From a virus: a stretch of DNA of 21,076 nt. The notes beneath the pieces were generated by a model. The model saw nothing but the letters and a program-made list of their open reading frames with translations. It was not told the DNA's origin and searched no databases. Shown piece after piece: positions 5,903 to 18,722 of the stretch. Numbering within the stretch: the stretch's first letter is position 1; each line of letters begins with the position of its first letter. The position numbers and the translations under genes were made by a program. The stretch is taken from positions 1 to 21,076 of IMG/VR virus record IMGVR_UViG_3300046459_000361. One strand, written 5' to 3'.

Positions 5903-6907
5903 TCACCTGACCTTGATGTTGCGGAACACGGACGCGGACTTGGTCGCCTTGAGGACGACACCGACCGGCCCCATCTCGACCTCGCCGGTCTTCACCGCGC
6001 CGGCGCTGGAGAAGTCGGGAAGCCACGTGTTCACGATCTGGCCGCCCACGGTGGCCACCGCGTGGAACCCGTCGAGGCCGATCCGCACCGCGTAGAGGTC
6101 GGTGAGGCCGGTCGCGGCGGTGCCGCCCACGGTGCGGTTCTCGATGGGGATGATCGGCGCGGAGGTGCCGGGCTTCTCCCCGGGGTCGACGAAGGTGATC
6201 CCGCCGTAGCTCTCCCGGACGATCGGGCGGCCGGTGGCGCCGATCAGGCCGTCGACCGGGTCACGGGTGTACTGCCCGGCGCGGCGGGCGAGGGCACGCA
6301 CACGCGCAAGGGCGGTGCTGTTGCCGATCACCAGCGACGGGGCGCCGTCGAGCTGAGAGAGCCACTCGTCGAGGACGTCGAGGGCCTTCTGTTCGGCGCG
6401 CGGGTCGGTGTCGAAGTCGGTCCAGTCGGTCACCTGCGCGAGGCGGAACTCGGTCGAGCTGCCGGACAGGGCCTTGTCGAGGCCGTCGAAGGAATCCTCG
6501 TCCTCCGCACTGTCGCCGTTGATCACGGCGTCCTGGAACTTGGTCCGGGTCGCCTTGATCTTCTGCTGCATGTTGAGCGTGACGGCGTTGGACGCTGCCG
6601 GACCGAGACGGGAGATGACCCGGTCGACCTGGAAGCTACCGCCGAGAACGGCGAGGTCGACGCTGAACCGCTGCGTCTTGACCTCGCTCGGCGCGTACTC
6701 GGTGTTGATCTTTCGGAAGTCCGCTGTGGGCTGGGTGATCAGCCGGCGGTACGAGTAGCTGAGGGTGTCGCCCCCGCCGGCGGGGTTGACGACGTCGTTG
6801 AAGACGAGCGAGTCGAGCAGAACGGATTCCTTGCGGAACTCGTCGATGACCTGAACGTCGACGTCGTCGGTCGCGTTCTGCTTGGCCTCGTCGAGGGTCA
6901 CGGGCAT
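5903..6907 (-). CDS. Major capsid protein
   Basis: A protein of 334 residues that forms the icosahedral shell. It starts at an ATG with AGGAG 9 bases upstream. The N-terminus is helical (LDEAKQNATDDVDVQVIDEF), followed by FRKESVLLDSLVFNDVVNPA, a segment typical of capsid proteins with an N-arm and E-loop. The core includes VINGDSAEDEDSFDGLDKAL and APSLVIGNSTALARVRALAR, and the C-terminus is beta-rich (VGVVLKATKSASVFRNIKV), matching HK97-fold capsid proteins of actinophages. The mini-gene at 6929-6976 ends 21 bases upstream, and the scaffold gene lies just beyond a reversed cassette. Confidence 0.9.
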   Translation of the reverse strand: MPVTLDEAKQNATDDVDVQVIDEFRKESVLLDSLVFNDVVNPAGGGDTLSYSYRRLITQPTADFRKINTEYAPSEVKTQRFSVDLAVLGGSFQVDRVISRLGPAASNAVTLNMQQKIKATRTKFQDAVINGDSAEDEDSFDGLDKALSGSSTEFRLAQVTDWTDFDTDPRAEQKALDVLDEWLSQLDGAPSLVIGNSTALARVRALARRAGQYTRDPVDGLIGATGRPIVRESYGGITFVDPGEKPGTSAPIIPIENRTVGGTAATGLTDLYAVRIGLDGFHAVATVGGQIVNTWLPDFSSAGAVKTGEVEMGPVGVVLKATKSASVFRNIKVR

Positions 6908-6928
6908 GGGCGTTGCTCCTGTCTTGGG

Positions 6929-6976
6929 TCAGCCGCCGAACTTGGCGGCGATGGCGTCGGCGAGGGTATTCGCCAT
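6929..6976 (-). CDS. 15-residue mini-protein repeating the scaffold C-terminus
   Basis: A complete tiny frame, ATG to TGA, encoding MANTLADAIAAKFGG. An AAGGAG ribosome binding site lies 6 bases before the ATG (minus strand, 6983-6988). The scaffold protein ends in ATLADAIAARFGN, so 10 of 12 residues from Thr4 on match. The similarity begins almost at the start codon: the DNA upstream of the two copies is unrelated. It could be a capsid-binding tail made as a separate peptide, a leader peptide that tunes capsid translation, or the remnant of an ancestral scaffold end left behind when the reversed cassette entered. The ribosome binding site argues against a mere remnant. Confidence 0.55.
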   Translation of the reverse strand: MANTLADAIAAKFGG

Positions 6977-6990
6977 GGGAGTCTCCTTAT

Positions 6991-7395
6991 GTGGATGGAG
7001 ACGCGAGGGATGAGCAGGCAGCAGAGGCAGCAGCGAACTCCAAGGCGAAGGGGGGCACCGACGAAACTGCCGTGCCGCGTCGGCCAGTTGTCGACCTAAG
7101 CAGCTATTCCCACACTCAGCGCCCCGCCGAGCGGCGGGAAATGACCAATGCAGAGCTGAAGGCAGCAGGGGCCACCAGCGCGAAGGGCGGAGTTGACTGG
7201 TTCGCCGGAGTTGCAGCGCTGATAGCAGCCGGGTTGGGAGGGGTCGCGGCGATCATCAAGGCATGGGCGCAACTCCTCTTTGCGCGTGCGGACATGATCC
7301 GGGCACGCTCAGGGCAACCAGATGTTGAACGTGATCGAGGGGAAGCAGAATCAGGGGACGGTGCTGGCGGGGGAAGCAGTCAGACTGATGCCTAG
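6991..7395 (+). CDS. Reversed cassette: small single-pass membrane protein
   Basis: A plus-strand frame of 134 codons between capsid and scaffold. I take the GTG at 6991, with GGAG 9 bases upstream; an in-frame ATG at 7141 would give 84 residues. Ala is written GCA and Glu GAG on both sides of codon 51, so the reading frame seems coding before the ATG as well. Residues 1-70 are hydrophilic, about 71-89 (WFAGVAALIAAGLGGVAAII) form one predicted membrane segment, and the tail is charged. A GC-rich hairpin (7123-7138) precedes the ATG. The stop overlaps the scaffold stop by three bases in a CTAG. I do not recognise a family. Placement and orientation suggest a moron. Confidence 0.55.
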   Translation: MDGDARDEQAAEAAANSKAKGGTDETAVPRRPVVDLSSYSHTQRPAERREMTNAELKAAGATSAKGGVDWFAGVAALIAAGLGGVAAIIKAWAQLLFARADMIRARSGQPDVERDRGEAESGDGAGGGSSQTDA

Positions 7396-8012
7396 TTTCC
7401 GAATCGGGCGGCGATGGCATCGGCCAGGGTGGCTGGCCGTTTGTCACTGGCCGGGGGCCCGTTGAACTCGGCGCCGCCGCGGGCCGGTCCCGTCGCCGGG
7501 GTGCCGAGACGGGGATTCGCCGTGATGGCGGCGGTGATGGCGGCGGTCAGTGCGGCGGTGTCGTTCGGATCGATCGCCTCGACCGTGGCGCGGAAGGACA
7601 CGGAGTCGAGCAGGGCGAGCGGGTCGGCGCCCGCGGCGGGCGCGGTCTGGAGAACGGCGGTCTGTACGGCGGCGGTGCGGGCTACGGTCTGGCTGTCCGT
7701 GATGGCGCGCTGTGCCCACTGCGGCAGACGGCTGATGTCGCCCTCGACCGCCGGCGCGACCTGGGCGGTCGGCGGGACCGGTGCCGGCTGCGGGGGCTGC
7801 GGCTGCTCGGCGGGGACCGGCGCGGGCGGGGTGACGGGTGCCGGCTGCGGTGTCGGCGCGGGGGCGGGCGGCTGTTGCGGTACGGCGGCGGGAGTTGGCG
7901 GCGCGGTCGGGGAGGGCGCGGGTGCGCCGGTCGGCTGTCCGCTCGGCTGGGTGCTGGGGTCGCCCTGCGGCTGTCCGCTCGGCGTGGTCGAGGACGGGGC
8001 CGGAGTGGTCAT
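7392..8012 (-). CDS. Capsid scaffolding protein
   Basis: A protein of 206 residues starting at an ATG with AGGAGG 5 bases upstream. The first 90 residues are an extreme low-complexity run of Pro, Ala, Gln and Thr, the next 90 are helical (ISRLPQWAQRAITDSQTVAR, then AALTAAITAAITANP), and the protein ends in ATLADAIAARFGN. Scaffolds of actinophages are typically short, flexible and placed directly before the capsid gene, and their C-terminal helix usually binds the capsid protein. Its end is repeated in the mini-gene next to the capsid gene. Its 5' region shares a promoter area with the reversed gene at 8207. Confidence 0.8.
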   Translation of the reverse strand: MTTPAPSSTTPSGQPQGDPSTQPSGQPTGAPAPSPTAPPTPAAVPQQPPAPAPTPQPAPVTPPAPVPAEQPQPPQPAPVPPTAQVAPAVEGDISRLPQWAQRAITDSQTVARTAAVQTAVLQTAPAAGADPLALLDSVSFRATVEAIDPNDTAALTAAITAAITANPRLGTPATGPARGGAEFNGPPASDKRPATLADAIAARFGN

Positions 8013-8634: not shown

Positions 8635-10854
8635 TTACCGCTTGTTCTGCTGGTCGCTTTCGTTCTTGCGTGCGCCGGACGCCCAGCGCTGTTCGCGGCC
8701 GGTCGCCTGCTCGATGAACTCGGCCTGAGTCAGGCGTCCGTGCTCGGCCCACCACTCTTTCAGTTCGTCGCTCGCCCGCGCGTACGCGATTCGAGCCGGA
8801 CCGGAGAAGAGTTCAGCCGGATTGACCCCGGCGGCCTGGGCCTTGGCGTTGAGGAGGTAGCCGTTCGTGGCGTCCTCGGCGGCGAGTAGCTGCCGGTATG
8901 CGTACTCCTCGTACAGGGCGCGGGCCTCGGCGCGGGTGACTTGGCGGGCGGTCTCCTCGGTCACGCCCTTGGCGGCGTCGGACGCGATGGCGGCGGCCAA
9001 CTCCTCGGCGAACGTGGTGTCGTCGGCGAGGGCGCCCCATGTCTCCGGGTCCGGGGCGGGGTCCATCGCTTCGGCGAGGGCGTCGCGGTCGGCGAGCAGG
9101 TCGTCGATGGCGTTGCCGGTCGCGGCGGGCGGTGGCAGTTCGACGGCGTCGCGGCGGTCCATCTCGGCGGCGATGCGCAGTAGTTCGTCGTTGGTGGCGT
9201 ACTGCATGCACCAGGCGAGGGCGTCGTCGCCTACGTCCGAGAGGTCCGCGGCGAGGTTCCCGCCGGGGAAGTACGTCGCGAGCAGGTCGCGGCGGCGGGC
9301 CTCGGCGTCGAGGGCGGCGCGCTCGTCGGGCCCGGCGGTCCGGGCACGGGCGGCGAGGTCGCGGTCGGACAGGCCGACCAGGTCGCGCCTCACGCCCGGT
9401 AGCCGGCTCGCGACGTCGCGGCGGTCCATCTCCGCCATGACGCGCAGCGCGTCGCCGTCGTCGAGGTGCGGGAACGCACGGGCGAGGTCGTTGTCGCCGA
9501 ACGCGAGCAGGTCGTCGGCGAGGGTGCCGCCGGGGCGAACGCGGTCGAGCAGGTCGTCGAGGTCGCGGCGGTCGGCCTCGGCCTCGATCCGCGCGCGGGC
9601 GCGGTCGTCGAGCAGGCGGGAACCCTCGGCGGCGGCGAGCTGGTCGTCGCGCATCTCCCGTAGCGAGCGGTCATCGCCCGACCACACGCGTGCGGCGTCG
9701 AGCTGGGCCGGCGTCGCCTCGGTGCGCGGGGCGGGGAGGTTGGACGCGCCCGGCTGCTCGCGCTGCCGCAGCCGGCCTAGGTCGGGGTGGGCGGCGAGGT
9801 GGTCGCGCATGGCGCCCTGCCACTGCCGCACCTTCGCGTCGGCGGCGCGCTGCGCCTCGGGCGTGACGGCGGCGGCCTCACGGTTCTTCCATCGCCGAAT
9901 GTTCCGCTCGATCTTCCGCTGCCGCTGCCCTGCCTCGTAGCCGGCGGGGTCGCCGGCCGCGTCCTCCACGGGCGTGATGCCGGGCGTGTACGCGGACACG
10001 CTGTGACGGCAGTTCGGATGCTGGAGACCTGCGCGGCGCGCTTCGTCGAGCGAACCGGCAACGCTCACCCGGACCGTGCGGCCGTCCTCGGTCGCGTGCT
10101 CGGCCTCGACCGTGCGCTCGCCGTCCGGCCCGCCCACGGTCAACACCTTGCGCTCCCAGGGGCGGCAGAGCGGGCACTCGCGCGGGGAGTCGGACACGAT
10201 CACCAGGTCGACGCCGGCCTCGCCGAGCGTGCGCATGTGCGCTTCGGTCGCGGCGCGGCCGACGGACGTCCGTACGGCCATCTCCGCGTACGAGGTGAGT
10301 TGCCAACGGCGGCCGGCGCGGTCGGTGAACGACGCGATACCGCGGTCGGCGAACCGGCGCATGGCGTCCTGCGCCGCCTGCCGGCGGGTGCCGGTGCCGA
10401 GCAGGGGCGTTGCGGTGACCTCGGCGACGACCGTCCGGTACTGGTCGTCGACCGCCCGGAGAATCGAGTGGTGCGTCGCCGTGAGCCGGTCGACGGTTTC
10501 CTGCGCGAGCCGGTCGACCGCCTGCGCGTTCGGGGCGACCTCGTCGACCAGGCGGCGGGAGTCGTCGGACAGGGCGCCGAGTTCGGCGACGGCGGCGCGG
10601 TGCCCGGTGTTGTACGCCTCGGCGACGGCGTCGAACACGTCGAGGGACATCGCCTTGCCGAGTTCGTCGACAACACCCTGTGCCGCGCGACGCACGGCCT
10701 GTACGGCGGCGAGCTTGCGCTCGACCCAACCCGGGGCGTCGAGGCCGTCGGCGAGTTGGCGGGCGATGATGCCCAACAGCCGTTCCTCGGCAGCGGCGTA
10801 CAGGTCACGGGTGGTCTCGGCGAGGTCTTCGACCATGCCCGGATGGATCGGCAT
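8635..10854 (-). CDS. MuF-type minor capsid protein 2 with C-terminal repeats
   Basis: A protein of 739 residues. I take the ATG at 10854 because MPIHPGMVE is also the start of the duplicated copy at 11799 and both have a G-run ribosome binding site just upstream. Residues about 20-150 are long helices. The MuF/minor capsid 2 core lies near residues 185-290, with CPLCRPWERKVL (227-238), a Gly-rich loop, and GLQHPNCRHSVSAYTPG (276-292); the Cys and His pairs suggest a metal site. The second half carries four degenerate repeats ending in DRRD, then a Glu/Ala-rich helical tail. Such proteins sit inside the head next to the portal and may be ejected. At 739 residues it is longer than simple MuF proteins. 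Confidence 0.85.
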   Translation of the reverse strand: MPIHPGMVEDLAETTRDLYAAAEERLLGIIARQLADGLDAPGWVERKLAAVQAVRRAAQGVVDELGKAMSLDVFDAVAEAYNTGHRAAVAELGALSDDSRRLVDEVAPNAQAVDRLAQETVDRLTATHHSILRAVDDQYRTVVAEVTATPLLGTGTRRQAAQDAMRRFADRGIASFTDRAGRRWQLTSYAEMAVRTSVGRAATEAHMRTLGEAGVDLVIVSDSPRECPLCRPWERKVLTVGGPDGERTVEAEHATEDGRTVRVSVAGSLDEARRAGLQHPNCRHSVSAYTPGITPVEDAAGDPAGYEAGQRQRKIERNIRRWKNREAAAVTPEAQRAADAKVRQWQGAMRDHLAAHPDLGRLRQREQPGASNLPAPRTEATPAQLDAARVWSGDDRSLREMRDDQLAAAEGSRLLDDRARARIEAEADRRDLDDLLDRVRPGGTLADDLLAFGDNDLARAFPHLDDGDALRVMAEMDRRDVASRLPGVRRDLVGLSDRDLAARARTAGPDERAALDAEARRRDLLATYFPGGNLAADLSDVGDDALAWCMQYATNDELLRIAAEMDRRDAVELPPPAATGNAIDDLLADRDALAEAMDPAPDPETWGALADDTTFAEELAAAIASDAAKGVTEETARQVTRAEARALYEEYAYRQLLAAEDATNGYLLNAKAQAAGVNPAELFSGPARIAYARASDELKEWWAEHGRLTQAEFIEQATGREQRWASGARKNESDQQNKR
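9150..9676 (-). repeat. Four degenerate DRRD-ending protein repeats in the MuF C-terminal half
   Basis: Within the MuF gene, units of roughly 42-50 codons recur. They have the pattern LxxLxDxxLAxA, then (D/A)EAxRRD or AEMDRRD. Examples are FGDNDLARAFPHLDDGDALR followed by VMAEMDRRD, and VGDDALAWCMQY followed by RIAAEMDRRD. In DNA, the box rich in GTCGCGGCGG recurs near 9146, 9286, 9414 and 9561. Similar acidic, Arg-rich repeats are common in large Streptomyces phage and secreted proteins. A role as a flexible spacer is inference. Confidence 0.6.
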
Positions 10855-11029
10855 GCGCCCCCCAACGGCCGTACGAATGGGCATAAATGGGAGACGTGCG
10901 TGACAGGTCAGTAACAGAAGGCGGCTTATGTGGCCGCGGAGTGTAGTTGTGGCACGTTGGGGCCCCTGGCGTCTCTGACGACGCGTTAGAGTTGCTGGCG
11001 CAGCTCCACGTGACCCCTCACGTGCTTCG

Positions 11030-11064
11030 CCGGGACTCCCGGTGAAGGCCCTGGGCTCCAGGGC
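11030..11064 (+). promoter_or_regulatory. Two hairpins in the leader of the 11091 gene
   Basis: CCGGG-act-CCCGG (11030-11042) is followed by GCCCTGG-gct-CCAGGGC (11048-11064), both perfect stems with three-base loops. They sit 15-60 bases before the ribosome binding site of the small gene at 11091. A TAGAGT that matches the Streptomyces -10 pattern lies at 10987-10992, but I see no good -35. The rest of 10855-11090 shows no gene. Confidence 0.35.
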
Positions 11065-11090
11065 ACTTTGGGGTCACTGGAGGTTGCGTG

Positions 11091-11213
11091 ATGGCGCGTC
11101 GGGACAAACGCGGCAGGCGGAGCGGGAAGCGGAAGCCGGACAGACGGCTGATGCTGATCGACTGGTTGCCGGTAGTCAGGCTCATCATCGAATGGCTGCT
11201 GCGGCAGGGCTAG
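11091..11213 (+). CDS. Reversed cassette: 40-residue cationic amphipathic peptide
   Basis: ATG to TAG frame of 40 codons with a clean GGAGG ribosome binding site 7 bases upstream and a perfect 13-bp terminator hairpin 48 bases downstream. Residues 1-19 (MARRDKRGRRSGKRKPDRR) contain 11 Arg/Lys; residues 20-40 (LMLIDWLPVVRLIIEWLLRQ plus G) would form a strongly hydrophobic helix with two Trp. That layout recalls small membrane-active peptides and type I toxin-like proteins, but I recognise no family. It lies in cargo block 2, between the portal fragment and the intact MuF gene. It overlaps another frame on the same strand (GTG at 11042), which has no ribosome binding site and looks non-coding. 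Confidence 0.6.
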   Translation: MARRDKRGRRSGKRKPDRRLMLIDWLPVVRLIIEWLLRQG

Positions 11214-11261
11214 CGAGAGCGGCCCTCACGTGGCTCCGGACGTACGGCACGGACTCAGCAA

Positions 11262-11296
11262 GTGAGCCCGGCCGGTGCTTAGACGGCCGGGCTCAC
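11262..11296 (+). terminator. Perfect 13-bp terminator hairpin after the 11091 gene
   Basis: GTGAGCCCGGCCG (11262-11274) pairs exactly with CGGCCGGGCTCAC (11284-11296) around a 9-base loop. There is no U-run on either side, which is common for Streptomyces terminators. Being symmetrical, it could also affect late transcription on the minus strand. Confidence 0.65.
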
Positions 11297-11470
11297 AAGC
11301 TGCACGCCAGGCAAGGGCTCGATTTCCGGGGGCAACCGGGTTTCGGGCCCTTCGCCGTGTCTGATACTCCGAACGTACTTGGCGTGTCGTGATAGTACCT
11401 TGATGTTGTGAAGGTCTTGCGCGTAAGCGGGTACCTTCCATGAAGGATTGTGAGTCGTTGGTGTCAGCAA
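11279..11470 (-). other. Open minus-strand stretch, possible gene remnant
   Basis: Between the cargo-block-2 hairpin and the portal fragment, one minus-strand frame stays open and looks protein-like: TPTTHNPSWKVPAYAQDLHN, then IKVLSRHAKYVRSIRHGEGP and PPEIEPLPGVQLV, to a TAA at 11279-11281. It has no ATG or ribosome binding site; the best start would be a TTG at 11470. Its stop lies in the loop of the 11262-11296 hairpin. It may be the end of a gene whose start was lost in the duplication, or chance. I see no other gene in 11297-11501. Confidence 0.25.
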
Positions 11471-11501
11471 GTCATACGCGTCAAGGCCGGAAACGGCGGG
11501 G

Positions 11502-11519
11502 TTCCCGCTACAGCGGGAA
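11502..11519 (-). terminator. Short hairpin at the end of the portal fragment
   Basis: TTCCCGCT and AGCGGGAA form a perfect 8-bp stem with a two-base loop. It covers the TAG that ends the portal remnant (11508-11510). No U-run follows. It may be a relic of the terminator or intergenic region of the donor phage. Confidence 0.35.
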
Positions 11520-11599
11520 TGATCCGACGGGGTCGGGCGCGGCGGCGCCGGTCTCGGTGAGGATCGCCCGCGCTTCGGCTTGTACTGGCGCGTCGTCCC
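11508..11599 (-). pseudogene. Portal C-terminal fragment (duplicate)
   Basis: In the right frame this segment reads DDAPVQAEARAILTETGAAA, then PDPVGSFPL and a TAG. The intact portal ends DDTTVQAEVAAILSETGAGA, then PDPVGSFPM. The fragment has no start and is joined out of frame to the MuF fragment, so it is not expressed as portal. The junction reads AAGGGACGAC on the minus strand, where MuF continues AAGGCG and portal has TGGGACGAC; the parents share only about two bases there. Confidence 0.85.
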
Positions 11600-11799
11600 T
11601 TGCCGAGTTCGTCGACGACGCCCTGTGCTGCGCGGCGCACGGCCTGTACGGCGGCGAACTTGCGCTCGACCCAACCGGGGGCGTCGAGGCCGTCGGCGAG
11701 CTGCCGGGCGATGATGCCCAACAACCGGTCCTGGGCCTCCCGGTACGGGCTCAGGGTGCCCTCGGCCAATTCCTCGACCATGCCGGGATGGATCGGCAT
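11598..11799 (-). pseudogene. MuF N-terminal fragment (duplicate)
   Basis: From the ATG at 11799 the frame encodes 67 residues closely matching the start of the MuF protein (MPIHPGMVEELAEGTLSPYR, then LADGLDAPGWVERKFAAVQA and VVDELGK). It then enters the portal fragment out of frame and stops at 11464, after about 45 unrelated residues. The ribosome binding region (a G-run before the ATG) is kept, so a short chimeric protein of about 112 residues might still be made. It starts 33 bases from the divergent zinc-ribbon gene. Confidence 0.85.
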
Positions 11800-11831
11800 G
11801 AGGTACCCCCGCATGGCTCTATCTTCGGTAC

Positions 11832-12071
11832 ATGCCGAATCAGGAAGATCACACGCGTCCGCACAGCGCACAGTGCAGACGGTGTCGGAACGTGGTCACG
11901 TACTGGGGGCCGTTAGGCAATAAACGGTGTCCTCGATGCGGACTGGTTCTGTGGGCTGGAGCATCCGACCCGAAAACCGAACGGATCATCACGAACATCC
12001 AAGGGTGCGGCGTCCTTCTGTTCGTGGCCTTGGTCTTGCTGATGATCGTGGCGGGATGTAACGCCAACTAA
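11832..12071 (+). CDS. Reversed cassette: zinc-ribbon single-pass membrane protein
   Basis: A protein of 79 residues. CRRC at 15-18 and CPRC at 33-36 form a CxxC-x14-CxxC zinc ribbon, followed by a membrane segment at about 57-75 (CGVLLFVALVLLMIVAG). There is no Shine-Dalgarno, but TATCTT (11820-11825) lies 6 bases before the ATG, as expected of a -10 for a leaderless mRNA; the -35 is not obvious. The gene is divergent from the MuF fragment and lies in cargo block 1. The layout would put a small metal-binding domain on one side of the membrane. Function unknown; I do not recognise the family beyond the generic zinc ribbon. Confidence 0.65.
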   Translation: MPNQEDHTRPHSAQCRRCRNVVTYWGPLGNKRCPRCGLVLWAGASDPKTERIITNIQGCGVLLFVALVLLMIVAGCNAN

Positions 12072-12084
12072 CCGTTGGGCGGAC

Positions 12085-12124
12085 GAGGAACCACCTTGAG
12101 TGCCAGGGTGGACGGGCGTTCCTC
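12085..12124 (+). terminator. Imperfect hairpin after the zinc-ribbon gene
   Basis: GAGGAAC (12085-12091) pairs with GTTCCTC (12118-12124), with an inner CACC/GGTG pairing and a bulge. It begins 14 bases after the stop codon. Its shape is less convincing than the other terminators in the window. Confidence 0.35.
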
Positions 12125-12283
12125 ACCGCCAGGCCAATGTGAGGCAAGTCACTTCCTTGACTGGCAAGGTTGAGAACCTTCGACAGCCTTGCTTCCCTAG
12201 GGTCTGAGTCGTCTTGATTCGCAATTCCTTAAGGGAAGGCTTGCGCAACCGTAGATGCTTGACGCCTCATGTGTCATATGGTA
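12125..12283. other. Non-coding gap with nested short palindromes
   Basis: I see no gene here. AAGGTT-gag-AACCTT (12166-12180) is a perfect 6-bp hairpin; GCAAGG (12164-12169) and CCTTGC (12187-12192) form a wider arm pair around it. TAGGGT (12198-12203) fits a Streptomyces -10, and a TTGACG to TATTGG pair (17-base spacer, near 12259-12287) is a second weak promoter candidate facing the 12322 gene. Confidence 0.35.
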
Positions 12284-12313
12284 TTGGCGCACCTCCCTGG
12301 GGTGTCGTACCTT
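12284..12313 (+). promoter_or_regulatory. Promoter for a leaderless small gene
   Basis: TTGGCG (12284-12289), an 18-base spacer and TACCTT (12308-12313) lie immediately before the ATG at 12322. The 8 bases between the -10 and the ATG mean that transcription should begin at or beside the start codon, a leaderless arrangement common in Streptomyces. Confidence 0.5.
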
Positions 12314-12321
12314 CCCGCTTC

Positions 12322-12468
12322 ATGACGACTCTTCAGCTCGTGGGCTCTGGCGTAACTCTCTTCGCCGCCGCATTGACCTGCCTCCTCTTCGTAGCGCTGA
12401 TGTCCCCTGACCCGGCACTGCGGGCCCGAGCTGAGCGACTGCTCGCCATCGTCTTCCGCGCCCAATAA
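12322..12468 (+). CDS. Reversed cassette: 48-residue membrane protein
   Basis: A protein of 48 residues: one membrane segment at about 4-27 (LQLVGSGVTLFAAALTCLLF) and then a basic amphipathic helix (PALRARAERLLAIVFRAQ). The frame is open further upstream from a TTG at 12214, but that extension looks non-coding and the promoter at 12284-12313 lies inside it, so I take the ATG at 12322. It converges with the portal gene, whose stop is 11 bases away. No family recognised. Confidence 0.5.
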   Translation: MTTLQLVGSGVTLFAAALTCLLFVALMSPDPALRARAERLLAIVFRAQ

Positions 12469-12479
12469 CGCCGTTGACG

Positions 12480-13955
12480 TCACATCGGGAAACTGCCGAC
12501 CGGGTCCGGTGCACCAGCGCCGGTCTCGGAAAGAATTGCCGCCACCTCTGCTTGCACGGTGGTGTCGTCCCACGTCGGGTTGAGGATCTTCACCTTCGTT
12601 GCTGTGCTGACGGCGCCGGCGCGGTTGAGCAGGTCGAGTGTGGTCGCTGTCTGCTCGGCCGACTCGGCGACGCCGTCGCCGAACTCCACGCGTGGCCGGT
12701 CGGGCGTGATCCTGCTGCCGAACAGCGTCGCGTCGAGCAGCAGCAGCACGTGGCACATGTCGGCGACGGCGTGCCGCCAATAGCCGGCCTTCTTGCGGCG
12801 GGTGACCATGCTCCGGGCGTCGCGGGCGTCGACCTCGGTCGCGGTGACCGGCGCTCCGTCGCCGTCGAGGCCGAACGACTGCGGGCTGTAGCCGGCCGAC
12901 TGGGCGGCCTCCCGTGTGATCGCCTCGGTGGAGCTGCGGTGTTCCTCAACCCTGATGTCGAACTGATTCAGGATGATGCCGGCGCCCTCGTTCGGCGGCA
13001 TGCGCAGGGAGTGCCAGACCTCGCGGTCGTCGTCGAACGACGCACCCTTGCCGGCCCCCTCGTTGCGCATGTACCCGTCCGGGACGATCAGGCGGGCGCG
13101 GGCGAGGCGGATGTCGCGCATCCACGATGTCCACGTTTCGTCGAGGCTGTCGAACAGGTCGTAGATCGGTGCCGCGTAGTCCGAGCGTCCGATCGGTGAG
13201 CCGCGGTGCAGCCGGTTGGGCAGCACGTTGGGGACGTAGGCGGCGGTGAGTTGCTGAATGCCGGTCGTGATCGTGTCGCCGTCGGCGTCGAGGCTGTCGA
13301 CCAGGTCGGCCGTGTCGGGGTGCTCGGTGAGCGGCACCCTGCGGCCGACGTTGTCGGCGGTGCCCTTGTACAGGGCGTGCACGATGCGGCCGGGCTCGTG
13401 CCGCTCGAAGTGCCGCCATACGGTCGAGGTGGTCGAACCGTCCAGCTCGCGCCAGAAGTTGACGGCGCGCAGCAGGCCGAAGCGCCATTCGGGGATCGCG
13501 CCGTCGGGCTGCATGACGGTGAGCAGGGGGCGCGGCACTAGGGCGCGGTCCCACGTCACCCGCAGGAAAACCCCACTGAGGGCGGCGGCCTGCTCGGCGG
13601 CGCCGAGGAACACCTGTTGGGCGCGGCCCTCGTCGAGCAGCTGGTCGAGGCGGGCCTGTGTCGCGGTGTCCTCGACGGCGATCGTCGGCATGTCGGAGAA
13701 CAACAGGGCGGCCGAGGTCGCGGCGATGTCGCCGGCGAGGGGGACGTGTAGCCGGTGGTCGCGCCGGTCGAGGCGGTGCTCGAACGACCGGCGGCCCCAC
13801 AGACGGCGCCGCTCGGTGTGCCGCGGGTGATTGGTGTAGACGCGGGCGAGGCGTTTCCGGTCGCCGCTGTACCACGCGTCGTCGACGCGCATCGCCTCGT
13901 AGTGCGCGACCCACGCCGGCGGCGGCCATGGGGCGCCGTTCTGAGGGAGGGGCAC
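12480..13955 (-). CDS. Portal protein
   Basis: A protein of 491 residues, a normal length for SPP1 gp6-like/siphophage portals. The dodecameric portal is the DNA entry and exit channel at one vertex. The start is a GTG (13953-13955) with AGGAGG 6 bases upstream. N-terminal region: PPPAWVAHYEAMRVDDAWYS; central hydrophobic segment with AALSGVFLRVTWDRALVPRP; and the helix that leads into the clip with DLFDSLDETWTSWMRDIRLA. The later part includes ITREAAQSAGYSPQSFGLDG, a portal signature. It lies between the large terminase and MuF, the classic order, but separated from both by plus-strand cassettes. Confidence 0.9.
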   Translation of the reverse strand: MPLPQNGAPWPPPAWVAHYEAMRVDDAWYSGDRKRLARVYTNHPRHTERRRLWGRRSFEHRLDRRDHRLHVPLAGDIAATSAALLFSDMPTIAVEDTATQARLDQLLDEGRAQQVFLGAAEQAAALSGVFLRVTWDRALVPRPLLTVMQPDGAIPEWRFGLLRAVNFWRELDGSTTSTVWRHFERHEPGRIVHALYKGTADNVGRRVPLTEHPDTADLVDSLDADGDTITTGIQQLTAAYVPNVLPNRLHRGSPIGRSDYAAPIYDLFDSLDETWTSWMRDIRLARARLIVPDGYMRNEGAGKGASFDDDREVWHSLRMPPNEGAGIILNQFDIRVEEHRSSTEAITREAAQSAGYSPQSFGLDGDGAPVTATEVDARDARSMVTRRKKAGYWRHAVADMCHVLLLLDATLFGSRITPDRPRVEFGDGVAESAEQTATTLDLLNRAGAVSTATKVKILNPTWDDTTVQAEVAAILSETGAGAPDPVGSFPM

Positions 13956-14025: not shown

Positions 14026-14571
14026 ATGGATCAGGGGGTTGCGTCTGTACTGGGCGCGGGTGCGGCAGCAGTCGGTGTTCTTGCTACGGGGTGGTTCACG
14101 TACCGTGCCACTCGGCGCGGGCCACACGATCAGCGGGACGTCGAACTTGGCCGGACCCTGCGTGACGAACGGCGCACCGTCTATGACCAGTTCATCGAAG
14201 CAGCTGGCCAACTTGACCATGCGCTCGCCGAGTTCGACCCGCGACAGAGCGGCTATCTGAGGGCTGAGCGTCCGTCATACCCTCGACCCTCGTCTGTCTC
14301 ACGATCTTTGGAACACTTGCTTGGGGCCGAGGCGGCTCTCGGCGAGCTGAAGAGAAGGGCTGAGCTAGCCGGTCCGGATTCAGTGGCCAAGGCTGCCGAT
14401 GATGCATGGCGCAAGGTGACGCTCTACCGCGAAGCATTGAGTCGGTCCCACCAGGGCCAAGTGAGCGGTGTGAAGAGACGTAAGGCACTGGGTCAGTTGG
14501 CGCGCCGCGCGGAGGAGTCTCGGCAGCAGCTCGCCAAGAAATCACGCGGTGCGTTGTCAACCTCGCGCTAG
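14026..14571 (+). CDS. Reversed cassette: membrane-anchored helical protein
   Basis: A protein of 181 residues. Residues about 5-25 (VASVLGAGAAAVGVLATGWF) form an N-terminal membrane anchor, followed by YRATRRGPHDQRDVELGRTL and long charged helices to the end. Proteins of this build (anchor, TxRxxR, coiled helices) are common and uncharacterised in Streptomyces chromosomes and prophages. AGGA lies 8 bases before the ATG. It is divergent from portal and converges with the large terminase, overlapping its last 15 bases. Third codon positions are less GC-biased than in the virion genes, consistent with cargo. Confidence 0.75.
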   Translation: MDQGVASVLGAGAAAVGVLATGWFTYRATRRGPHDQRDVELGRTLRDERRTVYDQFIEAAGQLDHALAEFDPRQSGYLRAERPSYPRPSSVSRSLEHLLGAEAALGELKRRAELAGPDSVAKAADDAWRKVTLYREALSRSHQGQVSGVKRRKALGQLARRAEESRQQLAKKSRGALSTSR

Positions 14572-15792
14572 TAGGTGCCGCCACTCGTGGGCGGTGGAGT
14601 GCACGGCGTAGCGCAGTGCGTCGCATGAGTGGTCGGCGACCTTGACGGGCTTGTCCTCGCCCTTGTCAGCGGCGGCCGTGTCCCATACGTAGCCAGGCAG
14701 CTCGTCGAGCAGTCCCTCGCACGACCGGTGTATCCGCAGCAGACCGGCGCCGAGCAGGCTCGCCACGGACCGGATGCCGTCGACGACCTCGTTCGAGGCG
14801 CGGGCCACGCCCTCGTAGGAGTCGGCCCACAACTGCGTGATGAACGATGCCGCGCTCGGGTCGACGAACGTCCACTCGGCCGAGATGCCGAGGTCGGCAA
14901 CCCACCTGCGCAGGGCGGCGCTGTACTGGGCGTCGGTCATCTGCCGGTGCGCGGTGCGGGAGTCGTGACGCCACTCGGCGCACGCGTACAGCCGGCCGTC
15001 GACGCCCTCACCGAGCAGGATCGCCGAGGTGGCGTTCACGGTGCCGTAGTCGATACCGATCCAGTGCCGGCGCATGGCCGGCAGAGTGTCGACGACGTGC
15101 ACGGCCTCGTCGTACATGTCGTAGATCGCACCCTCGGCGACTGCCCACGCACCGTCGATCATCCGTCGGCGCCACAGGCCGGTGTACTCCGCCGACAGGG
15201 CGGTGACGTACGTCGGCGCCAAGCTCGGGTTGTCGGCGAGGCGGAAGTGCCAGGCGGCGAGGTCGAGTTCGCCGGACCGGTCGAGGTACTGCCGCTTGAG
15301 CCAGTGCCTAGGCGAGTCGGGGTTCGTGGTGCACAGCAGCCGCGCCCCTGGCACGGACAGTCGGGCGAGCAACTGCACGAAGAAGCCCTCGGGAACGAGG
15401 GTTGCCTCGTCGACGTAGGCCAGGCAGGCAGTCGCACCGCGCAGCCGGCCCTCGGCACGCGCGTCCGAGGCGCCGATCAGGTGGACCGTGCGGCCGAGGA
15501 TGCTCGCGACGGTGGCGCCGCGGGTGTGCCGGACCTCGGCGGCGACGTCCGAGCCGAACAGTGCGGGATCTTGCAGGGGCTCGATGATGTTGCGCTCGAT
15601 CGTCTGCAACGACCGGCCGCACAGCAGGATCAACCCGGTTGCCGGGGCGCGGCGGATCGACAGCAGGAACGCGAGCAGGCTCGCAATCGTCTTGCCCGAC
15701 CTGACACTGCCGTGCCAGATCGATATACGGGACGTGAACGACTCGCGCACTGACCGTAGTTGTTTGTCGGACAGCGGGAGGGGCGCAGCCAT
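14557..15792 (-). CDS. terL: Terminase large subunit
   Basis: A protein of 411 residues, the packaging motor and nuclease. Visible motifs: Walker A GSVRSGKT (28-35), Walker B LAYVDE (124-129), motif III TTNPDSP (155-161), and nuclease aspartates in GIDYG (D248), FVDPS (D311) and VADHSCDALRYA (D387, D391). Both ATPase and nuclease therefore look intact. I take the ATG at 15792, which overlaps the small-terminase stop as TGATG; the GTG one codon earlier is possible but sits too near the G-rich ribosome binding site. The 3' end overlaps the convergent gene at 14026-14571 by 15 bases. Confidence 0.95.
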   Translation of the reverse strand: MAAPLPLSDKQLRSVRESFTSRISIWHGSVRSGKTIASLLAFLLSIRRAPATGLILLCGRSLQTIERNIIEPLQDPALFGSDVAAEVRHTRGATVASILGRTVHLIGASDARAEGRLRGATACLAYVDEATLVPEGFFVQLLARLSVPGARLLCTTNPDSPRHWLKRQYLDRSGELDLAAWHFRLADNPSLAPTYVTALSAEYTGLWRRRMIDGAWAVAEGAIYDMYDEAVHVVDTLPAMRRHWIGIDYGTVNATSAILLGEGVDGRLYACAEWRHDSRTAHRQMTDAQYSAALRRWVADLGISAEWTFVDPSAASFITQLWADSYEGVARASNEVVDGIRSVASLLGAGLLRIHRSCEGLLDELPGYVWDTAAADKGEDKPVKVADHSCDALRYAVHSTAHEWRHLLARG

Positions 15793-16238
15793 CACACCCC
15801 CTCGCGGTCACCTCCGGCCGGCCCGATCAGGGCGTCGGCGAGGCGGTCGAGCATCGAGCCGCCGGCGCTTCCGGTACCGGTCTGGCGGGCGAGCTCAGAG
15901 ACGCGGGCGTGTACCTCGGTGAGCGCGCGAGCGGCGGTGGCATGGTCGCGGGCATCCCGCGCAGAGTCAGAGCCCCCGACCCGCTCGACCTGACGCAGGG
16001 CGCCGTCGAGGGACTCGTCGGCGAGCAACTCGCGCCGCACGGCAGCATCGGCTCGTCGCGCCTCGGTGGCCGCCGCGACTCGGGCGCCCCCGCTGAAAGT
16101 AAGCCCCTCTTGTCCGGCGATCTTGCTCACGGTGGCGGCGCTGCGCCCGGTCGTGCGGGCGATCGCGTTACGCGACTTGCCCTCGGCGTGTAGCCGGCGG
16201 ACCTGCTCGCGGTCCTCGTCGGTGATCGGCTCGGCCAC
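15792..16238 (-). CDS. terS: Terminase small subunit (HTH DNA-binding)
   Basis: A protein of 148 residues with a helix-turn-helix at 7-46 (EDREQVRRLHAEGKSRNAIA, then RTTGRSAATVSKIAGQEGL), a helical oligomerisation middle and a Gly-rich tail. Small terminases bind the packaging site and hand DNA to TerL, which is encoded next with a one-base overlap. The start is a GTG with GGAGG 7 bases upstream. It could in principle be a regulator, but the size and place argue for TerS. Confidence 0.8.
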   Translation of the reverse strand: MAEPITDEDREQVRRLHAEGKSRNAIARTTGRSAATVSKIAGQEGLTFSGGARVAAATEARRADAAVRRELLADESLDGALRQVERVGGSDSARDARDHATAARALTEVHARVSELARQTGTGSAGGSMLDRLADALIGPAGGDREGV

Positions 16239-16262
16239 GGCGTCACCTCCCGGCAGGCATGT

Positions 16263-16299
16263 GTACGCCCCGCCGAGGGGGGGAGTCGACGGGGCGTAC
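16263..16299 (-). promoter_or_regulatory. 10-bp hairpin in the terminase leader (cos, terminator or attenuator candidate)
   Basis: GTACGCCCCG (16263-16272) and CGGGGCGTAC (16290-16299) form a perfect inverted repeat with a G-rich 17-base loop. It lies between the late promoter at 16338-16367 and terS, so the late transcript should contain it. The region directly upstream of terS is where cos sites usually lie, and symmetrical G/C boxes fit, but this is only positional. Confidence 0.45.
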
Positions 16300-16337
16300 G
16301 AGTTGGGCTGTTTCCCGGCACGCCGGAGGCGGCACCA

Positions 16338-16367
16338 ACATTAGGTCACGACTTGATAACGAGTCAA
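16338..16367 (-). promoter_or_regulatory. Promoter of the terminase/late operon
   Basis: On the minus strand TTGACT (16362-16367), an 18-base spacer and TAATGT (16338-16343), reading towards terS. It is one of the two best promoter matches in the window. Transcription would start near 16331, leaving a leader of about 95 bases with the 16263-16299 hairpin. Confidence 0.6.
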
Positions 16368-16368
16368 G
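16352..16368. promoter_or_regulatory. Operator-like inverted repeat over the late -35
   Basis: CTTGA-taacgag-TCAAG, read on the plus strand, is an inverted repeat with 7-base spacing that covers the -35 element of the terminase promoter. A repressor or activator could bind here. The repressor gene is not in the window. The rest of 16369-16520 is AT-richer than its surroundings and shows no gene. Confidence 0.35.
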
Positions 16369-16520
16369 GGTGATCTTTTGTGGTGCTACATGGCTTTTAT
16401 GCCTACGTGGGGCCCATCTGGAGCCTTGAATTGTCGCCGCCGTAAAGCAAATGGCGTCGCAAAATCACTTCGCACAATTCGCCTTAGATGAGACTGTCGG
16501 TCCGATTCGCATCTATGGGG

Positions 16521-16551
16521 TACAGTTTTAGGGTCTGAATGAGACCTAAAA
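16521..16551 (+). promoter_or_regulatory. -10 element and inverted repeat over the nuclease start codon
   Basis: TACAGT (16521-16526) is a -10 candidate 12 bases before the ATG. TTTTA-g-GGTCT (16526-16536) pairs with AGACC-TAAAA (16542-16551), a 10-bp stem with one bulged G and the loop GAATG, so the start codon sits in the loop. As DNA it could be an autoregulatory operator at the transcription start; as RNA it could hide the start codon. No Shine-Dalgarno or clear -35 is present. Confidence 0.45.
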
Positions 16552-17474
16552 ATTGGAGCGATCGAGTGGCTGAGTGGGCGTTGAAGGAGGGGGAGCGGCT
16601 CAAGCGCGTCGACGTGCACGCAGAGTACGGGGGGCGTCGGCAGGGAGGTATCGGGCCGTCGCGTGTCTCTAACAACGTTCTGCTCTTCACCGACCCTGCG
16701 AAGGGGCGGCAGCATGGGTACTTCGACGGTTGGGGCGAGGATGGTTGTTACCACTACGCCGGCGAGGGGCAAAGCGGCGATCAGCGGATGACGCAGGGGA
16801 ACCTCTCCATCCTCAACCACCGTCAGGACGGTCGTGCCCTTCGTCTATTTCAAGGCGTCGCGTCCGGCACGGTCGAGTACCTCGGAGAGTTTGTCCTGGC
16901 CCGCGACGTCCCGTGGTACCGCACGGACGCGCCGGACACCGACGGCGAACTCCGTAGCGTGATCATGTTTCGGCTGGAACCTGTGGACGCGGCCCTGCAT
17001 AAGGGTGCACGCCTGCCGCACACGCCGGAGATGGCCCCGACCGTTACCGCAGTCGACGTCGAGCAGCAGCACACCGAACGGGCCCTGGTGGACCCCTCGC
17101 GGGAACCCTATGAAGCGGAGCGCCGCGAGGCGTCGCTCGTCCGCGCCTATATCGAGCACCTGCGCGGCGAGGGGAGCGAAGTGGTCCGCCACAAGATCCT
17201 TCCGAGTGGCGTCCTTAAGGCCCTGTACACCGACATCTACGACGTGACCGAGCGCATCCTCATTGAGGCGAAGGGCACGGTTCACCGCGACGCGATCCGT
17301 CAGGCCGTCGGGCAGCTCTTCGACTATCGCCGCCACATCTCCCCGCCGCCGCGGGGACTTGCTCTCCTCGTGCCCTCCAAGCCCGAGGACGACCTACTTG
17401 ATTTCTGCACGTCCGTGGATATCAAGGTCATCTGGCCGGAAGGGGATGGATACGCCCAGACGAGTGTGTGGTGA
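16539..17474 (+). CDS. SRA-domain PD-(D/E)XK modification-dependent restriction endonuclease
   Basis: A protein of 311 residues. Residues about 25-150 match the ScoMcrA-type SRA domain, with GGRRQGGIGPS, FTDPAKGRQHGYFDGW, YHYAGEGQSGDQRM and LNHRQDGRALRLF. SRA domains flip out and read modified cytosine. After a linker, residues about 195-305 form a PD-(D/E)XK nuclease: D232 or D235 in YTDIYDV, then EAK (243-245), then QLFDY (259-263). All expected catalytic residues are present. This is the build of a type IV restriction enzyme that cuts modified DNA. It faces away from terS across a regulated gap. It may protect the lysogen from modified phages or methylated DNA; the cleaved modification is not predictable from sequence. 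Confidence 0.85.
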   Translation: MRPKNWSDRVAEWALKEGERLKRVDVHAEYGGRRQGGIGPSRVSNNVLLFTDPAKGRQHGYFDGWGEDGCYHYAGEGQSGDQRMTQGNLSILNHRQDGRALRLFQGVASGTVEYLGEFVLARDVPWYRTDAPDTDGELRSVIMFRLEPVDAALHKGARLPHTPEMAPTVTAVDVEQQHTERALVDPSREPYEAERREASLVRAYIEHLRGEGSEVVRHKILPSGVLKALYTDIYDVTERILIEAKGTVHRDAIRQAVGQLFDYRRHISPPPRGLALLVPSKPEDDLLDFCTSVDIKVIWPEGDGYAQTSVW

Positions 17475-17554
17475 GCTGAAATGGGCGCCGCTTGCGTTGC
17501 CCCAGCGCTGACGCACTCCGCTGCGAGGTCCCCTCGCGAGCACATATAAGTGCA

Positions 17555-17591
17555 GGCCACCCGCGTTGTTTCTCAGGCCCCGCGGGTGGCC
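17555..17591 (+). terminator. Hairpin after the nuclease gene
   Basis: GGCCACCCGCG (17555-17565) pairs perfectly with CGCGGGTGGCC (17581-17591), an 11-bp stem with a 15-base loop, 80 bases after the nuclease stop and 40 bases before the next plus-strand gene. It can terminate the nuclease mRNA or act as an attenuator for the next gene. ATATAAG just upstream (17544-17550) is a weak -10 candidate. Confidence 0.6.
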
Positions 17592-17631
17592 CGTGCTCTC
17601 GCCCTTACACAGAACAGGAGCAGGCTCCAGT

Positions 17632-17877
17632 ATGACCGAGCCGAACCACACCAGCCCCTCTCCGAAAGATGAGGAGCCGCCGACCGCGAAGGTGGCCGAG
17701 GAGCCGCAGACCCCGACAGGGGCTCGGCACTCCGAGGTCGTCCGTGCTGTCATGTACGGCAGCGCACTGTCTGCCGGTGTCTTCCTCGTGCTCTTCGGGA
17801 AGGCCACCGCTGTCGAGGCGTCCGGGTACGTCTCTCCGTTCCTCGTGATCTTCGAGGGAACCAACCGAGGTATCTGA
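17632..17877 (+). CDS. Small membrane protein downstream of the nuclease
   Basis: A protein of 81 residues. Residues 1-35 are hydrophilic and rich in Pro, Glu and Lys; about 38-58 (VRAVMYGSALSAGVFLVLFG) form one membrane segment; the end (YVSPFLVIFEGTNRGI) is partly hydrophobic. AGGAG lies 11 bases before the ATG, a long spacing. A strong terminator follows within 10 bases. Same direction as the nuclease but separated by a hairpin, so joint function is uncertain. No family recognised. Confidence 0.65.
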   Translation: MTEPNHTSPSPKDEEPPTAKVAEEPQTPTGARHSEVVRAVMYGSALSAGVFLVLFGKATAVEASGYVSPFLVIFEGTNRGI

Positions 17878-17886
17878 CCTCTGACG

Positions 17887-17919
17887 CTGGGGGCGTCCGC
17901 GTTCTGCGGGCGCCCCCAG
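17887..17919. terminator. Bidirectional terminator between convergent genes
   Basis: CTGGGGGCGTCCGC (17887-17900) pairs with GCGGGCGCCCCCAG (17906-17919): a 14-bp stem with one G-U pair and a 5-base loop. It lies 9 bases after the stop of the plus-strand membrane gene and 5 bases beyond the stop of the minus-strand gene at 17925, so it can serve both. Confidence 0.85.
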
Positions 17920-17924
17920 TACTG

Positions 17925-18722
17925 TCAAGCAGCTCGTTTCTCCACGTCACGCTGACGCGCGGAGCTCAGCGAGGCAACGAGTGCAAGCAGGTCGGCCCAC
18001 CCCCACATACGCCGGTCGTGTTCGTCCACGGGCACAGGCGCCGTGCAGTCGGGGCCGGTCGAGCAGGTCACCGTCGGGGCCTGCTCGGGACCGGTGTGCA
18101 GGGTGAGCTCGCCGGCGCAGTACGGGCACGGGTGGTCGGGTAGCGGGGTGGTGCGCTGGTCGAGGCCGAGGGTCCGCAGCAGCCTGCCCTCGGCGATGCG
18201 CGCGGTACGCCGTGCCTCGTGCAGCAGGTGCGGGGGCAGGGGCTCGAACGGCGGTGCGGTCGGGGTGCCGTCGAGCTGCTGCTCGGGGGCGGTGTCCTCG
18301 TCGAGCACGCGCCCCTCGATCCACACGGAAGCGAAGTGCAGGCCGTGCGCCCGCGATCCGGCCGCGCGCTGTGCGTCGGCCGCGCCTGGCTGCTGGAACT
18401 CCCAGCGGCGGGGGTCGCCGGTCCCGGCGCGCTGGACGGCGGCGGCGAGGGTGTCGGCGAGGTCGAACAGCAGCCGCTCGACGGCGAGGCCGGTGTCGAG
18501 CGCGGTCACGTTGAGCGGGGCGGGGTGCTCGCGCAGGACCAGGGGCGCACGGTCGGCGACGAGTTGCTCGTCGTCGGTGGCGCGCAGGGTGTGCGCGAGC
18601 TGCCGCGGCGGCCACACGTCGGCGGGCGGGGTCTCGACGGCGAGCAGCAGCTCGCCCCACAACTCCCGTACGGTGCGCAGCGCGTCGCCGGTCTCGCGTC
18701 GGGCAATGGCGTCGGACGTCAT
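17925..18722 (-). CDS. Hypothetical protein with Cys-rich C-terminus
   Basis: A protein of 265 residues starting at the ATG at 18722, with GAGGGAGG upstream. The first 180 residues are helical (LRTVRELWGELLLAV near the start, LAVERLLFDLADTLAAAVQR in the middle). The C-terminal third has CPYCAGELTLH followed by CSTGPDC, a zinc-ribbon-like pair of Cys knuckles, then MWGWADLLALVASL. Proteins of this kind recur in Streptomyces prophages and are uncharacterised. It is the last gene of the early cluster before the terminator at 17887-17919. The ribosome binding site and a 26-base gap set it slightly apart from the coupled genes before it. Confidence 0.75.
   Translation of the reverse strand: MTSDAIARRETGDALRTVRELWGELLLAVETPPADVWPPRQLAHTLRATDDEQLVADRAPLVLREHPAPLNVTALDTGLAVERLLFDLADTLAAAVQRAGTGDPRRWEFQQPGAADAQRAAGSRAHGLHFASVWIEGRVLDEDTAPEQQLDGTPTAPPFEPLPPHLLHEARRTARIAEGRLLRTLGLDQRTTPLPDHPCPYCAGELTLHTGPEQAPTVTCSTGPDCTAPVPVDEHDRRMWGWADLLALVASLSSARQRDVEKRAA

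Follow-up and report, generated by a model that had tools for sequence, protein, structure and literature searches.

Directly upstream of the capsid gene of this Streptomyces phage stands a very small open reading frame that repeats the end of the scaffold protein and carries a strong ribosome-binding site. Is it a gene that makes a peptide of its own, a leader for capsid translation, or a remnant left behind when other DNA entered the late operon? Here, we compared the window, that is, the whole stretch of 21,076 nucleotides analysed (IMG/VR record IMGVR_UViG_3300046459_000361), with relatives of its late genes in phages, prophages, and metagenomic contigs.

A mini-frame with a capsid-like start and a scaffold-like tail

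The mini-frame, MANTLADAIAAKFGG with its stop included, occupies positions 6929–6976 of the minus strand and consists of 15 codons between an ATG at 6974–6976 and a TGA stop. The Shine–Dalgarno sequence AAGGAG precedes it at 6983–6988 (minus strand), separated from the ATG by a 6-nt spacer. Its stop lies 21 nt 5' of the ATG of the major capsid gene (5903–6907, minus strand), whose product belongs to the epsilon15 gp7-like family, begins with MPVTLDEA, and has its own Shine–Dalgarno sequence, AGGAG, at 6916–6920. On the opposite side stands a scaffold-like gene of 206 amino acids ending in PATLADAIAARFGN (7392–8012, minus strand), the positional counterpart of which is annotated as a scaffolding protein in Gordonia phage TinyDot. 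Sequence matches of the scaffold and capsid proteins to the PDB (for the capsid, recA fusion constructs over residues 76–133) were weak or compositional and were not used.

As an earlier note on this DNA had recognised, the mini-frame repeats the scaffold C-terminus: positions 6936–6967 and 7399–7430 form a direct repeat of 32 nt with 84% identity, and the final 42 nt of the mini-frame and of the scaffold gene differ at 13 positions. The similarity had been thought to begin at the ATG; it begins instead at codon 4 (ACC CTC GCC ...), and codons 1–3, together with the ribosome site, are in register with a capsid start. An important role for the scaffold C-terminus, which the earlier note presupposes, is plausible, as its motif is kept by 112 of 116 distinct scaffold tails from Streptomyces, Paenibacillus, Clostridium, and Bacillus prophages; that it binds the capsid is argued by analogy with the scaffolds of P22 and herpesviruses, which bind coat protein via C-terminal elements (PMC12005531).

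The front of the mini-frame comprises the ribosome site, the ATG, two codons, and ACCCTCG, and its translation, M-A-N-T-L-A-D-A, follows the capsid-start register. In 160 of 168 capsid relatives, the protein opens with M-x-x-[TS]-L (Thr or Ser followed by Leu at positions 4–5), typically continued by A-E/D-A, and two of them (L141 and L143) start with MAITLADA. Within the window, a 22-nt direct repeat (73% identity) links the capsid start to the front of the mini-frame. ACCCTCGnCGAnGCC is common to the capsid start ATGCCCGTGACCCTCGACGAGGCC and the start of the mini-frame, ATGGCGAATACCCTCGCCGACGCC, and it is also found in the scaffold tail. The probable crossover stretch common to the scaffold end and the capsid start is ACCCTCGCCGACGCC (6953–6967, minus strand), 13 of whose 15 letters agree with the capsid counterpart ACCCTCGACGAGGCC at 6884–6898. 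Judged by these similarities, the mini-frame looks like a chimera with its front from a capsid start and its back from a scaffold tail, and the simplest reading is likely that a capsid start and a scaffold end became fused at ACCCTCGnCGAnGCC. More broadly, [TS]-L-x-[DEQN]-[AG] occurs at both the capsid N-terminus and the scaffold tail in 60 of 114 distinct capsid/scaffold pairs (L002–L090 and L117–L196). This shared motif, being short, may be coincidental, or it may reflect common descent or mimicry; it appears to supply the short homology used at the mini-frame junction.

The start signals of the mini-frame

The 17-mer AAGGAGACTCCCATGGC, which spans the ribosome site and the ATG, is present in 51 other IMG/VR stretches; in all 51 an open frame starts at its ATG (9–453 codons), many of these with recognisable phage-protein starts. 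When the cassette end was resampled with a first-order Markov model, an in-frame ATG with a Shine–Dalgarno-like site no more than three codons from the tail arose in 0.14% of draws, and in 1.6% when ATG, GTG, or TTG within ten codons was allowed. These low figures, which come from a post hoc test with a simple model, fit descent from a real gene start. RNA folding places the AAGGAG within a predicted GUCUCC/GGAGAC hairpin; the folding of the leader region is not decisive, with z −2.75 for a 143-nt stretch and −0.7 and −0.9 for two shorter ones, and a search of Rfam returned zero matches. Judging from these signals, the mini-frame is probably translatable; provided that the late transcript traverses the cassette, its translation is also probable. 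The sequence CATGGGAGTCTCCTTATG (window 6974–6991) is almost palindromic, so that each strand has a Shine–Dalgarno-like site and a start codon.

The mini-frame borders a cassette missing from relatives

The closest relative is a Streptomyces prunicolor prophage (L117, L415, and L416), which has ~96% identity over the part that aligns with the reversed window. In blastn alignments, minus-strand window positions 10723–13684 and 14110–18172 match positions 1–2978 and 2941–7002 of L117, and the 38-nt overlap of the alignment with itself in L117 indicates a gain, in the window, of an insert of ~425 nt together with a further copy of the scaffold tail. The insert (6968–7392; ~0.42 kb, GC ~0.62–0.66), delimited by alignment to L117 and others, is missing from the cassette-free relatives, the empty site being found in L117, L118, L012–L014, and others.

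The sequence flanking the cassette is unusually divergent. Identity to L117 is 475/482 over most of the scaffold gene and 120/138 over its last part (7393–7530, minus strand); just past the cassette it is 36/43, and beyond that 517/525. Compared with the adjoining sequence (992/1007), this divergence gave a Fisher p of 4e-12, a value for which neighbouring sites are not independent, and divergent patches occur elsewhere in the L117 alignment too, with ~6% of 50-nt windows below 90% identity. The divergent scaffold end shows what appears to be the pattern of an imported tract. The 13 differences between the two tail copies make a recent simple target duplication unlikely. The tail of the mini-frame also differs from L117, which does not settle which of the two copies is native.

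On the plus strand, the cassette contains an antisense frame of 84 amino acids (7141–7395, with a possible GTG start at 6991) that has one predicted hydrophobic helix and is uncertain as a gene. Its third-position GC is 0.58, against 0.94 for the capsid and 0.87 for the scaffold gene, and it may be a foreign gene or no gene at all; a family search gave no match, those listed being far below the cut-offs. Searches for relatives of the cassette by blastn and tblastn in phage records, plasmids, IMG/VR, and 393 Streptomyces genomes yielded none that was convincing: the protein matches, of low complexity and mostly inside large frames, were rejected, and the DNA matches of ~19–52 nt were judged to be chance. 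Simple scans, which leave out Streptomyces promoter types, detected no sigma-70-like promoter or terminator in the cassette. Further plus-strand frames lie among the minus-strand late genes at window positions 11832–12071, 14026–14571, and 16539–17474; the first two show putative membrane segments by eye, and the first also a possible zinc ribbon.

The mini-frame was found only in the window and one near-identical contig

We gathered 169 capsid loci from phages, IMG/VR, and GTDB genomes, together with matches in Streptomyces genomes (36 of the 393 sampled). At 156 of the 169 loci, a tail-bearing frame ends 5–77 nt 5' of the capsid gene (median 18.5 nt; 152 within 8–50 nt). The other 13 did not fit the tail pattern used, and among them L052 and L053 have a 280-nt gap 5' of the capsid gene. 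In L053, a tRNA-Met gene (2726–2797) lies between the scaffold and capsid genes, and L052 shows the same gap.

Among these loci, the mini-frame was found in no capsid relative except L011, a separate contig that is 99.925% identical to the window over 4011 nt and letter-identical over the 236 nt 5' of the capsid gene. L011 also contains the junction of cassette, mini-frame, and capsid gene; the junction of scaffold and cassette is known from the window alone. Short frames in L083 and L121 are cut by contig ends, and the 112-codon frame of L133 is not a mini-frame. A pattern scan of IMG/VR for a ribosome site, an ATG, and L-x-D-A-[IV] gave L011 as the sole relevant match, a corrected sequence-pattern search of IMG/VR gave L011 only, and a relaxed start-pattern scan contained, among the matches listed, no short frame with a scaffold-like tail. 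The search that the earlier note had proposed, for the same frame and ribosome site before the capsid genes of related phages, led only to a near-identical contig. A functional small protein would be expected to keep its frame and start in diverged lineages; here, both were seen only in the window and the near-identical L011.

A second probable scar between the portal and MuF genes

A similar arrangement was identified elsewhere in the window by comparison with L415 and L417. In the order of the genes, it consists of a divergent portal end, a cassette with the antisense frame 11832–12071, 214 nt of MuF gene start, and 91 nt of portal-gene end, followed on the 3' side by sequence partly shared with L415 and then by the full MuF gene. 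The MuF fragment (11598–11811, minus strand) is identical to the window's own MuF start at 184 of 214 positions; the portal fragment (11515–11605, minus strand) agrees with L415 at 81/91 positions and with the portal end of the window itself at only 64/95, and the two fragments meet with an overlap of ~8 nt. Along the portal gene, identity to L415 is 87–98 of 98 per bin and falls to 75/98 in the last bin. Both scars share one layout, in which a divergent end of the upstream gene is followed by a cassette and then by a start of the downstream gene fused to an end of the upstream gene; the cassettes themselves differ. At the second scar, the MuF codons continue into portal sequence that is read out of frame, and the joined frame looks like debris, which supports reading the mini-frame as debris too.

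Proposed origin of the mini-frame

The reading that we favour, with a probability of about 80%, is that the mini-frame is a scar left by recombination when the cassette was inserted, and would have no dedicated function. A phage with an accessory cassette between its scaffold and capsid genes would have recombined with a cassette-free phage. In one exchange, a homologous crossover inside the scaffold gene would have imported the divergent scaffold end, the cassette, and the first codons and ribosome site of a capsid gene; in the other, out of register, the donor capsid start (M-x-x-TLADA) would have been joined to the recipient scaffold end (TLADAIAAKFGG) over ACCCTCGnCGAnGCC, producing a 15-codon chimeric frame followed by an intact capsid gene. 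The main likely effect of such a frame would be ribosome loading 21 nt 5' of the capsid start.

This reading draws on several observations: close relatives have the empty site, the scaffold tail is duplicated and the scaffold end divergent, the scaffold and capsid genes have a stretch in common, the front follows a capsid-like register, and a second scar has the same layout. From these we infer the sequence of events, the donor and recipient phages, and the lack of a dedicated function. The mechanism of exchange is read from its footprints, since no donor phage with scaffold, cassette, and capsid in plain order was found in the collections searched, where absence is no proof of nonexistence. 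Counting against the scar is the short text from which the capsid origin of the front is drawn (the register, the ribosome site, and the 22-nt repeat). In support of the scar, the scaffolds of cassette-free relatives end directly in the repeated sequence, which there lacks an ATG and a ribosome site of its own, an arrangement that the earlier note had named as telling against a function and that supports its own alternative, a relic of a former scaffold end.

Whatever its origin, the mini-frame might have been kept as a translational leader that places terminating ribosomes 21 nt 5' of the capsid start, a reading that we regard as unlikely, though of some weight. Translation of the scaffold gives the same spacing in cassette-free relatives (21 nt in L012, L013, L014, and L117–L121), and with the capsid start a few tens of nucleotides past the scaffold stop in relatives, coupling is plausible and would be retained by the mini-frame. 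The ribosome site, moreover, is strong and opens frames elsewhere, and a random cassette end would yield such a start in 0.1–1.6% of draws. However, the homologous sequence brings the spacing with it, and a capsid origin accounts for the start; the capsid gene, with an AGGAG in front of it, does not require a leader, the Shine–Dalgarno sequence of the mini-frame is caught in the predicted hairpin, and there is no comparative sign of selection. A more elaborate version, in which the scar was recruited as a capsid leader to restore the coupling that the cassette had broken, with the shared [TS]-L-x-[DE]-A motif serving both as head-assembly mimicry and as a recombination site, is decidedly improbable.

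The remaining readings fare worse. It is very improbable that the cassette is a small mobile element targeting the scaffold 3' end and bringing a replacement tail, its repeats being target-site or attachment-site copies. Its ~425 nt come near the 439 bp of MPME1, an ultra-small mobile element of mycobacteriophages (PMC3029335), and direct repeats flank the insert; but the terminal inverted repeats and the multiple copies at different sites that mark MPME-type elements are both absent, no protein family is recognised, a tail duplicate takes the place of the 6-bp addition of MPME1, and the repeats are too dissimilar to be a recent target duplication. Phage records, IMG/VR, and the 393 Streptomyces genomes yielded no other copy, and the portal/MuF scar of equal layout holds a different cassette. 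Only a slim chance is left to the headline of the earlier note, a free capsid-binding tail that tunes head assembly. The strongly conserved tail motif is intact in the mini-frame, and, as with P22 gp8 and the herpesvirus scaffold, the repeated sequence is the conserved end of a presumed scaffold beside a capsid gene (PMC12005531); unlike those elements, it is here a free frame of 15 residues in one lineage, with a putative role in binding. Conservation beyond L011 or in a second lineage was not found. A 15-residue peptide may, in addition, be short-lived in a bacterial cell, which further disfavours an assembly peptide. The least credible explanation is an assembly artefact fusing two strains: the source is metagenomic and shared stretches could mislead an assembler, but those stretches, of ~8–15 nt, are below the usual assembly word lengths, the copies differ by 11–33%, and the separate contig L011 has the same cassette/mini-frame/capsid junction.

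Comparison with known systems and implications

To the extent that genome layout can tell, the cassette fits a loose description of a moron, i.e. accessory DNA between genes that are adjacent in relatives (PMC3029335, PMC7067206). The added segment separates two late genes that are contiguous where the site is empty, it includes an antisense frame, and its base composition and codon use are unlike those of the surrounding phage genes. It may differ from a moron in its promoter-like and terminator-like sites, none of which simple scans detected, and in its antisense frame, which is perhaps no gene; a chimeric gene fragment also stands at its junction. The junctions also resemble those of phage mosaics, in which homologous exchange on one side is combined with short-homology or illegitimate joining on the other. 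Here, the divergent tract lies upstream (120/138 against 475/482 at the scaffold end, and 75/98 at the portal end), the opposite side has a short shared stretch with fused gene ends (ACCCTCGnCGAnGCC, and ~8 nt at portal/MuF), and neighbouring genes are partly duplicated, as in homology-assisted illegitimate recombination. In contrast to usual mosaic junctions, what is left here is a small open frame whose start looks functional, and one genome contains two footprints.

If the scar reading holds, debris of phage recombination can take the form of a purposeful-looking small gene, complete with a strong ribosome site, a warning for catalogues of small proteins. The two footprints would make the entry of cassettes into phage late operons readable as an exchange inside the upstream gene followed by a short-homology join, which couples the start of the downstream gene to the end of the upstream one. 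Were the leader role true, the locus would show how a tightly spaced scaffold–capsid pair tolerates an insertion.

Two side observations concern the small frames and the capsid family. A 12-codon frame, MARHKGRKGRRK, with the identical ribosome site AAGGAGACTCCCATGGC occurs in many IMG/VR contigs (e.g. L363, L364, L366, L369, L370, L373, and L374). Capsid matches in L049–L051, L054, L066, L067, L076, L086, L133, and L134 extend over ~1300 nt, against ~1000 nt, which suggests an inserted domain of ~100 residues.
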